Assembly: GCF_038397785.1 (NCBI RefSeq)
Contig: NZ_CP151642.1
Span: forward strand, 1,116,001-1,180,000
Source of the DNA: Salinibacterium sp. TMP30
Lineage (GTDB): Bacteria > Actinomycetota > Actinomycetes > Actinomycetales > Microbacteriaceae
Length of the DNA: 64,000 bases
Direction: 5' to 3'
Position 1 is the first letter of the stretch. Every line of letters starts with the position of its first letter. The notes beneath the pieces were generated by a model. That model ran no database searches and was not told the origin of the DNA. It saw only the letters and a list, made by a program, of their open reading frames with translations. Both the position numbers and the translations under genes were made by a program. Below, one piece after another: positions 5,273 through 10,428 of this stretch.

Positions 5273-7303
5273 CTAGAGCTTGCTCATTATCCAGGCGAGC
5301 ATGTAGCTCCGACTGTTGCCATCGTCGATGCGGTCCTCGGTGAGGTTCGCACTCTCGTCAAGTGCAGCAGCCGCATCTTCTGAGCCGGCCAGAGCTGAGT
5401 ACATCAGCAGATAGTCGCCGAATAGTACGTCTGAGCCTTGTGGTGCAGCTTCGGAGAGGTTCGCACGCACTCGATCGGGGTCTATGCCGAGGTAACCGGC
5501 GACCGGGCTCATGGGCAGCACGAGAATTCCCAACATCGCGCTCGGCTCCGCACTGAACCACGTAGCGTAGTCGCGTTTTCCGCCCCAGTTCAGTGACGCA
5601 ACGGTGTGGCCGAATCCGTCGTAGACAGCGTCGCTTCTATCGAAGTTGGTCCAGTAGGCAAGGGCCGACTCTGCTTCTGCTGAGAGCATCCATTGTGCTT
5701 CTGTGGCGAGGTCTGGCTGGTTGCTTGCGGCAGCCCACAGCGCGAGCCCATTCCACGCGCTGACTGCTTCTGAACTGGATTCCTGATTATTACCGTCGGC
5801 AAACGGCGCTGTACCGCTCGCCCACGAGTGGCCCGCGTAGGCGTCGAAAACCCGACGCTCTGGAAAGTAGGTGTTGTCGCTCTGTGCTGCGATATCGGCC
5901 GCCAGAAGGTTCATCACAGGCGCCCACCGTGTTACGAGAGTGGGGTCGGCGGCGGCGAGCACTCCTGCGGTGTAGAGAAAGTATCCGTAGTGAAAGTGGT
6001 GGTCGTTGAACTGGTCTGACCCGAACGACGGGGCAAGTCCGACTATTCCGCGCGCCTGTTCGTCGTAGACGAAGCAGCGTTCGGTGCGGTTTGTGCACCC
6101 GTCAGGATCAGCCCACCCGTCCATGGCATTCACGAGCTGATCTGTGATGGTGGTTGCGAGATCATCGGCGCCGAGCTGACGTGCAATATCGAGCATGTTG
6201 GTCAGGCGGTACATCCACTTTCCGCCGTAGTAGGTGTCGGCGGGCGCTGGCAGAGTTGATGCGACATCGATTGTCAACTGCGCAACGAGTCGAAACTTGT
6301 TGTCGTCAGAAAATTGCGAAAGGTCAATCGATCCAGCAGGAGTGACCGTTGGTACCGACCAGGTCAGCTCTGTCCCGGCGCACGCCAGAAGCTGCCCGTA
6401 GACGCTCTTCCAACTGCTCGTTTCGCATACTGTGCTGGCTCCGAGTGATGCATACTGGTGTGGCATTGCTGCAACGATGGTGGGTGATCCGTCAGTGGTT
6501 TCGTAGGTGATGCTCGTTGTGGTTCTGTCGTTAGCAACCGAATAGTGGATGCTCGTGCTCATGATGGGCGACGCGGCGGCCGTCACGTAGTCAGCCAGGG
6601 AGCCCCCCGTTGAGACGGCAAACCAGGTCGCCACCTGACCTGGGGAGAGCGTCAGCACTGTTGTTGACGCAGCCATAGCCCCGTCGCTGACGAGTCCGTA
6701 TTCGGTGCCGTCGATCGTGATGGTCCACGCTCCGGTGCCAGCGGTCAGTGACTGCCCGAGATCTACGGTCACAGACTTCGTGGCGGTGAAACTCACGAAC
6801 GGTGATCCTTCGGCGATAACGGTAGTTCCGATCTCAATCCCATCAGCAGTATTTGCGATGGTGACTGAGGCCTCGTCGTAGGCGCTAACTGCATAGTCGT
6901 CCGCTCCGATGTCTGCAGTCAGTGCGCCAAAAAAGCCGCCAGCGATTACGTTGTCGTTGGTGACTATGGCAGGTACACCGAACGCGAACCCCTGCTCTGT
7001 CATCTGAAATGCCAACGGCAAGGGGAAGACCGGCAGGGGGTCGTCCCCGAACACCAGCCCGGAAAACCACTTGTTGGTGGGCGGGATGAGCCCGTCGGCC
7101 AGTCGAGCTGTGGGCAGGGCCGTGATGGTTCGCGCAGGCAGCGCTTCGATCAATGGTCCGACCGTGCTGTCTGGCAGTATTCCGGCCCCCACGGTACTCG
7201 GGGCAGGTGTCTGAGTCGTGCATCCGGTGACGACCGTGAGGGCCACCACCAGTGTGGAGACTGCAGGATAGGGGTAACGGCGAGCCACTCGACTACAGGC
7301 CAA
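5273..7303 (-). CDS. GH81 endo-beta-1,3-glucanase, lipoprotein
   Basis: 676 residues. The N-terminus has a lipoprotein signal with lipobox VVTGC (C28), so it is exported and membrane-anchored. Family 81 signatures are PPTNKWFSGLVFGD (74-87), FNDHHFHYGYFLYTAG (432-447) and GNNQESSSEAVSAWNGLALW (504-523), the last carrying the two glutamates proposed as catalytic in GH81. Such enzymes cut internal beta-1,3-glucosidic bonds. It overlaps the upstream adaptor gene by 11 bases and is third in an operon with a BcsA-like glycosyltransferase, so editing or release of a self-made beta-1,3-linked glucan is a better guess than nutrition. Confidence 0.9.
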   Translation of the reverse strand: MACSRVARRYPYPAVSTLVVALTVVTGCTTQTPAPSTVGAGILPDSTVGPLIEALPARTITALPTARLADGLIPPTNKWFSGLVFGDDPLPVFPLPLAFQMTEQGFAFGVPAIVTNDNVIAGGFFGALTADIGADDYAVSAYDEASVTIANTADGIEIGTTVIAEGSPFVSFTATKSVTVDLGQSLTAGTGAWTITIDGTEYGLVSDGAMAASTTVLTLSPGQVATWFAVSTGGSLADYVTAAASPIMSTSIHYSVANDRTTTSITYETTDGSPTIVAAMPHQYASLGASTVCETSSWKSVYGQLLACAGTELTWSVPTVTPAGSIDLSQFSDDNKFRLVAQLTIDVASTLPAPADTYYGGKWMYRLTNMLDIARQLGADDLATTITDQLVNAMDGWADPDGCTNRTERCFVYDEQARGIVGLAPSFGSDQFNDHHFHYGYFLYTAGVLAAADPTLVTRWAPVMNLLAADIAAQSDNTYFPERRVFDAYAGHSWASGTAPFADGNNQESSSEAVSAWNGLALWAAASNQPDLATEAQWMLSAEAESALAYWTNFDRSDAVYDGFGHTVASLNWGGKRDYATWFSAEPSAMLGILVLPMSPVAGYLGIDPDRVRANLSEAAPQGSDVLFGDYLLMYSALAGSEDAAAALDESANLTEDRIDDGNSRSYMLAWIMSKL

Positions 7304-8027
7304 TTTTTCTCAGGAAGTCAGAGAAACCGTCGAAAGCGCCCGCCAATATGCCATCGTCGCTCAGCTTTAGCGTTGCGGTCACCGGCGTACCGGCTTTCAC
7401 GAGACCGTTGTACGCGCCATCAGTAAGAGACGCGCTGTGTACTCGGATGGTGGTCTCCGCCTGGCCGTCCACGGTCTGAACGTCGATGGTCGACACCGAG
7501 CCCTCGATGCTTGCGCCATTCGGTAGGAGCAGTATGACGGGTGCTCCATCGCCGATGCGAGAGTAGTCACGCCCCGTTAGCTCGTATTGTGCCACGACAG
7601 ACAACGTACCTACCCTTTCGATAGTCGCGAGAACCTGACCCGCTTGAACGAACGAACCCGGTTGGGTCGTGACATCCCGCACGGTGCCAGGCACTGCGGC
7701 GGTAAGGGTGATGGTGCCATCCTCGGTAACGGTGTAGGCGACGGTCTCCGGCTTTAGAAGCCCTTCGGCGAGGTCAGCCTGCAGTGAGGGGCTTTGCAGT
7801 GTGAAGAGGACGTCGCCCTCACTCACTCGCTGGTCATCTGTCGTGATGAAGCTTTCAACGAGCGTGCCGCCGTAGTCGATGCCGACGGGATAACGTTCGG
7901 CCGCAATGGATGCTGAGACACTGGTGACCTGTGCTTGGCGCTGGGTAAAGATGACGGTCAGCCCGAGCACGAGCGCGAGTACTGCCACGAGTCCGATAAA
8001 TAGTTTGAGGTTACTGCGCCAGGTCAT
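7293..8027 (-). CDS. HlyD/membrane-fusion-type adaptor protein
   Basis: 244 residues: one N-terminal membrane helix (about 8-28), then a short extracellular part with two half-lipoyl-like segments (RVSEGDVLFTLQSPSL and PGTVRDVTTQPGSFVQAGQVLATI) and a beta-barrel region ending GTPVTATLKLSDDGI. There is no long coiled coil. In beta-glucan synthase loci of other bacteria a protein of this class partners a BcsA-like synthase. Here its ATG overlaps the stop of the glycosyltransferase gene by 4 bases (8024-8027), strong evidence for coupled translation and a shared complex. It could assist polymer export through the thick wall. Confidence 0.8.
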   Translation of the reverse strand: MTWRSNLKLFIGLVAVLALVLGLTVIFTQRQAQVTSVSASIAAERYPVGIDYGGTLVESFITTDDQRVSEGDVLFTLQSPSLQADLAEGLLKPETVAYTVTEDGTITLTAAVPGTVRDVTTQPGSFVQAGQVLATIERVGTLSVVAQYELTGRDYSRIGDGAPVILLLPNGASIEGSVSTIDVQTVDGQAETTIRVHSASLTDGAYNGLVKAGTPVTATLKLSDDGILAGAFDGFSDFLRKIGL

Positions 8028-9694
8028 GCTGTCGCTCCTGTCCTGGTGATTGGGCGCCGTGTCAGGCGGTGTGACCGGCTCAGCGAAACATGTTCACGCA
8101 TGGCGGCGGCGACGAAACTTCCCATGATGACGGTGTTAGTAACGTTCCACGCTGTCGCTAGTGTCAGAACCTCGTTGTCGATGTCTCTGAAGATTGCGAC
8201 AAACGAGGTGAGGAGCAGAAACACGAAAAACAGCACCTGAGGGATCATGAAATTGAAGGGTGAAGACATTTTCGATCGGTCACCCGTGGCGCTCCATGAC
8301 TGCTCCTTGCCGGTGAGCACATTGAGGAGTGCTGCGAGGTAGATGGGTGCAGAGACCGTAGCGAGCATCAGCGTTTCCCAACGGAATGAACCCATCGTGT
8401 AGAACGCAAGCACGATCTGGATGACGTAAAACCCTGCGTAGTAGAGCACCCAGGTCACAACGGTGGTCGATAGGTTCATCGGTCGCAGGTCGAAATAGAT
8501 TTCGAGCGCCGGCACCACCATGAGGAGGAGCGGGGAAATTCCGGTGAGGTAGAAGGAAGCTGTCACTAGGTACTGGAGGCGCTGGTCGAGCGTGAGTTTG
8601 CGTTTGCGGCTCAGCGGGTTGTGGTTGAACAGGATTTCAAAGCCGCCCGTTGCCCACCGCAATTGTTGTTTGGTGTACGACTCCACAGTGTCAGGCGCGT
8701 GTCCGACGGCGAGGGTCATCGGAATAAAAATGGTGTGCCATCCTCGCTCATGGAGCATGAGCGAGGTCCAGACATCTTCTGACTTGGAGTCGGTGTAGAT
8801 CCCGCCGACGTCATCGATTGCTGCACGTCGGAAGATGACGTTGGTGCCGACGCAGAAGGCCGCGTTAAATCTGTTGCGCCCGGGCTGGATAAACCTGTAG
8901 AAAATCGACTGCATGTAGCCAGCCCCGCGAGAGATGACGTTGTGCAGGTTTCCATAGGTCTGCGGCGTCTGAACGAAAGCAACCTCATCCCGAGAGAAGA
9001 ATGGGATCGTTTCGATGAGGAATTCGGGCGAAGGAACAAAGTCTGCGTCGAAGATAGCGAAGAAGTGGCCCTTGGTGAGGCTGAGGCCGTGGTTAACGTT
9101 GCCGGCTTTGGCCCCGCCCGAACTGAGCCTGCGTACGTAGCGCGCGCCGAGCTCGGCGGCCATCTCTCGAATTTCGTCGGAGCGCCCATCGTCAAGGACC
9201 CACGTAATGTGGGTCCCGCGCATCGCGAGTGCTGCGCTGACGGTTTTGCGGATGACGGGGGCGGGTTCGCCGTACGTGGTGATGAAGACATCGATGCTGG
9301 CCTCACTCTCGTCGAGGTACAAGTCCCAGCGAGATGGATCGTTGGTCAGGCCGTCACGCAAAATATCTCGATCGCGGAACAGCTTCGCTTTCGCGTCATG
9401 GAATGCGAAGTCTCGGGGGTCCTGTGAGGCAGAGAGGATCGTCCACATCGACAACAGCGCCTGCAGAATCAGGACGGTTTCGGCGATGATGACGAGCGTG
9501 TACGGCAGCCAATCTCCGCGGCTAACGGGGTTCAGGAGGAACGAGGCGTAGGCGAGGATGCCTAGGGTCGCGATCATCACCAAGATCACTAACGATGGCG
9601 ACTGCGCCTTTACAGGCTCTGTGTTTCGGGGTACTGGGGGCAGGTCGGGAACTGCTCTTGTGGTCGTGGGGAGTCGATTCTGCAGGGTCGTCAT
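8024..9694 (-). CDS. Cellulose-synthase-like family 2 glycosyltransferase (beta-glucan synthase candidate)
   Basis: 556 residues from the ATG complementary to 9692-9694, which has a GAAAGAAG purine run upstream. Two N-terminal membrane helices (about 33-52, 64-84) precede a cytosolic GT-A domain with all processive-GT motifs: VLDDG (D168/D169), FDADF (D216, D218), SEDVW (D307) and QQLRW (343-347). At least four C-terminal helices follow. BcsA, curdlan synthase and mixed-linkage glucan synthases share this plan. No PilZ domain is visible. Its operon mates, an HlyD-like adaptor and a beta-1,3-glucanase, suggest a beta-1,3 or mixed-linkage glucan rather than cellulose; the linkage cannot be read from sequence. 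Confidence 0.88.
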   Translation of the reverse strand: MTTLQNRLPTTTRAVPDLPPVPRNTEPVKAQSPSLVILVMIATLGILAYASFLLNPVSRGDWLPYTLVIIAETVLILQALLSMWTILSASQDPRDFAFHDAKAKLFRDRDILRDGLTNDPSRWDLYLDESEASIDVFITTYGEPAPVIRKTVSAALAMRGTHITWVLDDGRSDEIREMAAELGARYVRRLSSGGAKAGNVNHGLSLTKGHFFAIFDADFVPSPEFLIETIPFFSRDEVAFVQTPQTYGNLHNVISRGAGYMQSIFYRFIQPGRNRFNAAFCVGTNVIFRRAAIDDVGGIYTDSKSEDVWTSLMLHERGWHTIFIPMTLAVGHAPDTVESYTKQQLRWATGGFEILFNHNPLSRKRKLTLDQRLQYLVTASFYLTGISPLLLMVVPALEIYFDLRPMNLSTTVVTWVLYYAGFYVIQIVLAFYTMGSFRWETLMLATVSAPIYLAALLNVLTGKEQSWSATGDRSKMSSPFNFMIPQVLFFVFLLLTSFVAIFRDIDNEVLTLATAWNVTNTVIMGSFVAAAMREHVSLSRSHRLTRRPITRTGATA

Positions 9695-9960
9695 TCTGGC
9701 TTCTTTCGGAAGAAGTGCTAGGCGACGCAGCACGGCAGGAAGGCTCGCTGGACAGGGAACCGGATGCACGCGGGGTGACCAAATGCGACCGGGATGTCAT
9801 AGCAGCGTCGTTGACGTGCGTACAGGCAGGCGTCGCGACGGGGGAGTCACGGTGCCGAGAGGTGCGGGATTTCGGGTGGAGCGGGTAGAACTGCCCACGG
9901 TACGGCAGCTCGGCGTCCCCCAAAAGGGGTGGCCTAGCTAAAAGGCCACTGTTTACGAGC
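9695..9960 (-). promoter_or_regulatory. Long structured 5' leader of the glucan synthase operon
   Basis: About 290 bases separate the glycosyltransferase start from the next gene. Read on the minus strand the distal part carries three consecutive hairpins: AGGCC/GGCCT type (9931-9935 with 9943-9947), CCCC/GGGG (9918-9921 with 9926-9929) and CTGCC/GGCAG (9891-9895 with 9904-9908). A CCGAAATCCCGCACC segment follows. The run of stems so far upstream suggests a riboswitch-like leader; a c-di-AMP (ydaO-type) element is one possibility but I cannot confirm it. No convincing coding frame fills this stretch. Confidence 0.35.
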
Positions 9961-9987: not shown

Positions 9988-10428
9988 CTAGTCGACGAAA
10001 CCTCGGTTCGACCATTCAATAATCTCTGCTGTGGTGGCGTGAGGGGGAGCAGCCCGTGCCACTCTCGACGGCACCTGAGTAAGGAGCACAGTTGTGGGGC
10101 GATCCGGAAGAGAGGCATGATGCCCGTCACGAGCATTGAACCGTTTGTTTACGAGCGCTCCCAGAATGGCACCAACACCGAATCCGAGCGGAAGCAGCAG
10201 CAGGTACCCCGTCGGGTCTGTGTTCGCCGCCGTGCCAAGTGCTAGCGTCGCAGCCACGCCGACCGCAGCCCCGATTGTTATGGCAATCCACCAGCGCTGA
10301 AGTTGTGCATTGGCAGCATCCCAGGCTCGCTGAGCACGAAACTGCTCAAGTGCTTCATCACGTGGTACCAAGCTCACCCATGTGCGACCTTCGAAGCGGA
10401 AGACGTTCGGGTGGTCGTCGATTGCCAT
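9988..10428 (-). CDS. Membrane protein of unknown function with two helices
   Basis: 146 residues. An N-terminal soluble part (FRFEGRTWVSLVPRDEALEQF) is followed by two hydrophobic helices (about 47-66 and 75-93) with glycine/alanine-rich faces, and a soluble C-terminal tail ending in TTAEIIEWSNRGFVD. The start overlaps the stop of the ybaK-like gene by one base (TAATG on the minus strand), so the two are cotranscribed. No family was recognised; it may be an actinobacterial lineage-specific protein. Confidence 0.75.
   Translation of the reverse strand: MAIDDHPNVFRFEGRTWVSLVPRDEALEQFRAQRAWDAANAQLQRWWIAITIGAAVGVAATLALGTAANTDPTGYLLLLPLGFGVGAILGALVNKRFNARDGHHASLPDRPTTVLLTQVPSRVARAAPPHATTAEIIEWSNRGFVD

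Follow-up and report, generated by a model that had tools for sequence, protein, structure and literature searches.

A conserved operon of BcsA-like synthase, HlyD-type adaptor and GH81 glucanase genes in actinobacteria, a candidate beta-1,3-glucan system

The cellulose synthase operon contains a hydrolase of its own, the GH8 enzyme BcsZ. The mixed-linkage glucan operon bgsBA encodes an HlyD-like protein, BgsB (PMC9495663), and in Pseudomonas the Orphan/NdvB protein, in which a BcsA-like GT2 is fused to GH17, has been proposed to be a cyclic beta-1,3-glucan synthase (PMC10237404). Here we describe a three-gene operon of Salinibacterium sp. TMP30, found in a window that comprises the whole stretch of 64,000 nucleotides analysed (NZ_CP151642.1, positions 1,116,001 to 1,180,000). 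Read on the minus strand from 9694 to 5273, the genes follow each other in the order GT2, HlyD, GH81:

8024..9694, minus strand: GT2 synthase gene (P0003, 556 amino acids), with ATG at 9694
7293..8027, minus strand: HlyD-type adaptor gene (P0002, 244 amino acids)
5273..7303, minus strand: predicted GH81 endo-beta-1,3-glucanase gene (P0001, 676 amino acids), TTG start
8024..8027, minus strand: 4-base overlap of the GT2 and HlyD genes
7293..7303, minus strand: 11-base overlap of the HlyD and GH81 genes, only with the TTG start

The gene overlaps of 4 and 11 bases claimed in the initial annotation are present, the latter depending on the TTG start: the start of the GH81 gene is uncertain, and with a GTG at 7288 the two genes would be separated by a short gap and the 11-base overlap would be lost. 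An alternative start is possible for the GT2 gene as well, at an upstream GTG at 9769.

Conservation of the three genes

From the genome searches we can conclude that the GT2-HlyD-GH81 trio is a real conserved unit. When the HlyD protein was searched in 200 genomes of the family, all 26 strong matches, which come from 24 genomes, had the GT2 and GH81 genes in place. A GT2 alignment was used to scan named genomes, and of the best 80 of 517 relatives, examined as loci, 78 have the three genes in this order, the other two being contigs that end after the HlyD gene. The initial annotation had let its proposal hinge on joint conservation of the three genes in actinobacterial genomes, and this is what is found. 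Named loci with the trio occur in Salinibacterium, Cryobacterium, Frigoribacterium, Curtobacterium, Cellulomonas, Cellulosimicrobium, Oerskovia, Sanguibacter, Demequina, Isoptericola, Microlunatus and others. Furthermore, within the family to which Cellulomonas flavigena belongs, the operon GT2 is present in 10 of 18 genomes of one genus and in 52 of 82 of another. A sample of 396 genomes from the phylum gave no match in any further genome above 42% identity. Since the arrangement recurs across several actinobacterial families, and since the exact 4-base overlap of the GT2 and HlyD genes is kept in 76 of 82 operons, the observed three-gene arrangement is real and far beyond chance; the overlap also suggests translational coupling.

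The pairwise distances of the three proteins are correlated (r 0.80-0.88, the permuted maximum being about 0.10), a common species history contributing to this agreement. In a tree of the GH81 enzymes within the order two deep clades are seen, clade A with mostly larger stand-alone enzymes and clade B with the operonic ones. With wide flanks 42 of the 43 rows of clade B are operonic (15 looked alone with 1.5-kb flanks, 14 of which are operonic with wider ones), and the clade-A members that were checked stand alone. The notion that the GH81 is a scavenger of foreign beta-1,3-glucans, and that its place in the operon is due to hitchhiking, draws on the stand-alone GH81 enzymes of many genomes of the order and on one genome with a partnerless clade-B enzyme, but it is hardly credible in view of the facts that the stand-alone enzymes belong to a different deep clade, and that the operonic ones track the GT2 and HlyD proteins and are predicted to be membrane-targeted. 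The partnerless enzyme (L240, G283:C5:322000-333000) has no GT2 or HlyD gene nearby and sits on a long branch, possibly reflecting partner loss.

The flanking genes in the window are of the housekeeping kind by Pfam and NCBIfam, encoding a DsbA-like protein, a YbaK-type deacylase, Dus, an HD-domain protein and primase, and the three genes therefore stand alone. A search of the neighbours found no fourth conserved gene common beyond related families, and scans for promoters and terminators yielded no signal better than chance. A 146-amino-acid open frame upstream of the operon (9988-10428, minus strand) has hydrophobic stretches and no family match. Variations of the locus are occasionally found elsewhere: two complete operons stand in tandem in one genome (L258, G242:C1:1612000-1625000), and four Cellulomonas loci (L095, L109, L117, L118) have a second large GH81 of about 1130-1250 amino acids just downstream of the operon, that of L095 falling in the stand-alone clade when placed on the tree. 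The GH81 frame of Naasia aerilata (L110, 9733-12437) and a GT2 frame in another genome (G546:C1:360115-361664) are each split in two, which may reflect broken copies or sequencing errors.

Properties of the synthase, adaptor and glucanase

The synthase gives GT2 family matches in Pfam and NCBIfam scans and carries the motifs D135, DDG168-170, DAD216-218, SED305-307 and QQLRW343-347, and the corresponding columns (D, DDG, DAD, SED, QQxRW) show no variation among the 79 operons aligned; a WxxTG gating-loop-like motif at 467-471 is likewise kept. A structure model built from 28 sequences, with a predicted local distance difference test score (pLDDT) of 75, has two N-terminal transmembrane (TM) helices, a cytosolic GT domain and a C-terminal TM bundle. 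Its best match in the PDB is BcsA (9fnn, Z 29.5, root-mean-square deviation 3.0 over 460 residues), which is also the PDB relative by sequence. The BcsA fold including the TM channel helices is thus seen in the model, and processivity is predicted. The model stops about 10 residues past the last helix and has no room for PilZ, and indeed neither the Pfam scan nor the model holds a PilZ or other C-terminal domain, so that the description of the gene as a BcsA-like synthase lacking PilZ was correct. The enzyme is nonetheless not a BcsA, since besides having no PilZ it scores 247.9 bits against the NCBIfam CelA equivalog, below the cut-off of 699.1.

These observations also bear on the idea that cellulose or another beta-1,4-glucan is the product of the operon and that the GH81 serves something else. 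Fold and sequence are indeed nearest to BcsA within the PDB, but such a product is highly unlikely given the CelA score (248 against 699), the lack of both PilZ and BcsB in the operon and the constant presence there, in all the families, of a beta-1,3-specific enzyme. Furthermore, the genome has a separate BcsA-like synthase of 760 amino acids with a C-terminal PilZ domain (G000:C1 ~138249-142554, L202:10250-14555), adjoining a PAS-GGDEF-EAL protein that is the only GGDEF protein of the genome. This locus is likely a cellulose-type system controlled by cyclic di-GMP (c-di-GMP). The GT2-HlyD-GH81 operon shows no c-di-GMP domain, and the genome therefore separates a c-di-GMP-type, cellulose-like system from it. 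As the GT2 ends without PilZ or another C-terminal domain, control of the operon is probably transcriptional.

The adaptor matches HlyD_3 in Pfam (40.5 bits, cut-off 22.2, E 4.9e-10). Its AlphaFold model (pLDDT 83.8) has one N-terminal TM helix followed by barrel-sandwich (lipoyl) and beta-barrel domains, as fits the one-helix HlyD-type adaptor first described, and it is devoid of the alpha-helical hairpin, the part that reaches an outer-membrane partner. Matches in the PDB include ZneB, MacA, MexA and BesA.

In the glucanase the C-terminal GH81 domain (GH81C) is recognised by Pfam with 193 bits (cut-off 25.6, E 1e-56), the N-terminal domain falls just under its cut-off (21.7 against 25.6), and no carbohydrate-binding module is found by Pfam. 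Relatives in the PDB are 6fop (E 4e-63) and, by sequence, BH0236, and all 79 aligned operons keep the residues D434, E508 and E512. Endo-beta-1,3-glucanase activity would be expected from the family. A lipobox, VTGC with C28, predicts that the window enzyme is a lipoprotein, and together with the GH81C match this upholds the lipoprotein GH81 of the initial annotation, the enzyme being a built-in part of the unit. The same prediction is made for 59 of 82 operon GH81s; the other 23, all from Cellulomonas or Actinotalea, carry a hydrophobic helix at the N terminus, which could serve as an anchor or as a signal peptide. All operon GH81s are thus predicted to be membrane-targeted.

Proposed function and the case of Cellulomonas

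We propose, with a probability of roughly 0.68, that the operon combines synthesis of a beta-1,3-glucan at the membrane with trimming on the outside, the product being curdlan-type or beta-1,3-rich and made in any amount. This reading of synthesis, translocation and trimming stems from the pairing of synthase and HlyD protein, which is like that of bgsBA and of a crdASC-like locus, from the parallels with BcsZ and Orphan/NdvB, and from the specificity of GH81. The GT2 would polymerise what is presumably UDP-glucose in the cytosol and, as judged from fold and motifs, could, like BcsA, pass the chain through a channel formed by its own TM helices. The HlyD protein, with its one-helix anchor, may guide or stabilise the emerging chain on the outer face, as its fold and the pairing suggest, and the membrane-tethered GH81 would, like BcsZ with cellulose, cut emerging or tangled beta-1,3-glucan, either setting the chain length or releasing the chain. 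The enzyme may instead recycle the glucan later as laminari-oligosaccharides.

It is the specificity of GH81 that points to a beta-1,3 linkage. For this family no activity other than endo-beta-1,3-glucanase has been reported, and PsLam81A cuts neither barley glucan nor cellulose, with minor activity noted for other members (PMC9609564). For these reasons a beta-1,3-glucan is favoured and a mixed 1,3/1,4-glucan is less likely; of the secretion system for beta-1,3- or 1,3/1,4-glucan suggested initially, the beta-glucan and probably the beta-1,3 linkage are retained, and the mixed linkage has lost ground. Mixed-linkage synthesis as by bgsBA in rhizobia, where the GH81 would cut only 1,3-rich stretches, is suggested by BgsA being the nearest match with a known product (BLAST, 37% over 288 amino acids, E 1.5e-55) and by BgsA likewise having no PilZ and being paired with an HlyD protein (PMC9495663). 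It is however unlikely considering the inactivity of PsLam81A on barley glucan, and considering that BgsA has TED, a C-terminal c-di-GMP-binding region and a place in the tree with CrdS-like proteins and BcsA.

Several points speak against a beta-1,3-glucan product, the first being that the operon GT2s form their own fully supported clade in a quick tree, apart from BcsA, CrdS-like proteins and BgsA. As CrdS and BgsA fall in another clade, the product cannot be read off by orthology, and assigning a product from the GT2 tree was rejected on this ground. The catalytic-base motif SED, rather than TED, is common to the operon GT2s and CrdS-like proteins and absent from the BcsA, BgsA and PgaC proteins compared, but it is a weak hint of the product, since Streptomyces-like relatives (genus guessed) with no assigned product carry SED too. 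In addition, the adaptor was modelled by itself, and the model is silent on synthase binding. Finally, the operon is present in C. gelida (L119), which has been reported to make no curdlan (PMC3035266), and the C. gelida genome (G518) lacks a second BcsA-like GT2 that is found in C. flavigena, C. fimi and C. gilvus.

Cellulomonas flavigena is a curdlan producer, and the C. fimi genome paper, in which how C. flavigena reuses curdlan is called unclear, lists among its candidate GT2s Cfla_3154, Celf_3456 and Celgi_1506, with 35-39% identity to curdlan synthase (PMC3544764). The operon is present in genomes that we take, from inferred identity, to be those of C. flavigena, C. fimi and C. gilvus, and its GT2 positions appear to fit these three genes. 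In the literature found, no gene making curdlan in a Gram-positive has been identified. The second GT2 occurs in 24 of the 82 genomes of the genus; in the C. flavigena genome (G516, L237:8177-12897) it lies near genes for a STAS-domain protein and a MASE1-PAS-SpoIIE protein.

It is possible, but doubtful, that this second, Cfla_2615-like GT2 makes the bulk curdlan of Cellulomonas and the operon a minor, cell-bound or oligomeric beta-1,3-glucan, a sub-case of our proposal, so that the chances given to the two overlap and the figures do not sum to one. Such a division would account for C. gelida, with the operon, no second GT2 and reportedly no curdlan, and for the three species that have both, and a built-in glucanase would oppose accumulation. 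However, the argument rests on a handful of phenotyped species, the absence of curdlan in C. gelida was probably tested under limited conditions, and the second GT2 has TED and adjoins STAS and SpoIIE genes, with no recognised export or glucanase partner. In C. gelida the operon may be silent or low-yield, or it may not be the bulk curdlan synthase.

Within the proposal of a membrane-made and outside-trimmed beta-1,3-glucan, the more specific notion of a curdlan-type operon of Gram-positive actinobacteria, whose tethered GH81 shapes and recycles the polymer, is put forward tentatively and at somewhat less than even odds. If true, it would provide the genes still lacking for how C. flavigena makes and reuses curdlan, steps for which the operon is a precise three-gene candidate, and cryptic production of beta-1,3-glucan would be expected in Cryobacterium, Curtobacterium, Frigoribacterium, Demequina, Salinibacterium and others.

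Comparison with known systems

The bgsBA operon of Sinorhizobium meliloti and Rhizobium etli likewise has a BcsA-like GT2 without PilZ whose gene overlaps that of an HlyD-family partner. In bgsBA, however, the HlyD gene comes first and encodes 410 amino acids, the GT2 has 664 amino acids with a C-terminal c-di-GMP-binding domain where the window GT2 has a short tail after the last TM helix, BgsA differs in clade and catalytic-base motif as described above, and no GH81-like hydrolase gene adjoins the loci (L180, L183). A profile comparison of the adaptor with BgsB gives a weak match (probability 61%, 116 columns), and BLAST finds no similarity between them.

The crdASC curdlan locus of Agrobacterium was compared by way of a locus on the pAt plasmid (L182) that is taken as crdASC-like from gene order and size, not from comparison with Atu3055-3057. 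It shares with the operon a GT2, an HlyD-family protein and a third exported protein, as well as the SED motif, but its CrdA-like protein of 484 amino acids precedes CrdS, and the operon GT2 falls outside the CrdS-like clade. The gene in the crdA position is of the HlyD family and has 1455 bp, which fits the 1458 bp given for crdA (PMC10819609). The CrdC-like third protein was considered as a GH81 relative and rejected, since it has no match in Pfam and does not resemble GH81. It has 426 amino acids and an apparent signal peptide (L182:5764-7044), and a weak match to an endo-beta-1,2-glucanase (E 0.006) hints at a glycosidase-like fold in a curdlan-type locus. As its GT2 is in a clade of its own, the operon belongs to neither bgsBA nor crdASC.

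With the bcs cellulose operon (BcsA, BcsB, BcsZ) the trio shares a processive type of GT2 with its own channel and a polymer-specific hydrolase, but it has neither PilZ nor BcsB, a GH81 takes the place of the GH8, and the synthase stays under the CelA cut-off. Orphan/NdvB resembles it in joining a BcsA-like GT2 with a glycosidase that acts on beta-1,3 linkages at the outer face of the membrane, yet does so in a GH17 fusion protein, whereas here the genes are separate and include a GH81 and an HlyD partner. The stand-alone GH81s of the same order share the family and catalytic core and differ in their deep clade, their mostly larger size and the absence of GT2 or HlyD genes from the flanks looked at.

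The trio of GH81, HlyD and synthase is undescribed in the literature that we searched on GH81/HlyD, curdlan and actinobacteria, mostly non-subscription papers. The pairing with a small membrane partner noted at the outset stands, but an HlyD partner is not novel, since BgsB is HlyD-like (PMC9495663) and the crdA-position gene is of the HlyD family. With the synthase-HlyD pairing already known, the novelty lies in the GH81, in a synthase clade of its own and in the wide occurrence among Gram-positives. The operon is a GH81-containing variant of a known synthase-HlyD design, compact, without c-di-GMP domains and spread across several actinobacterial families.

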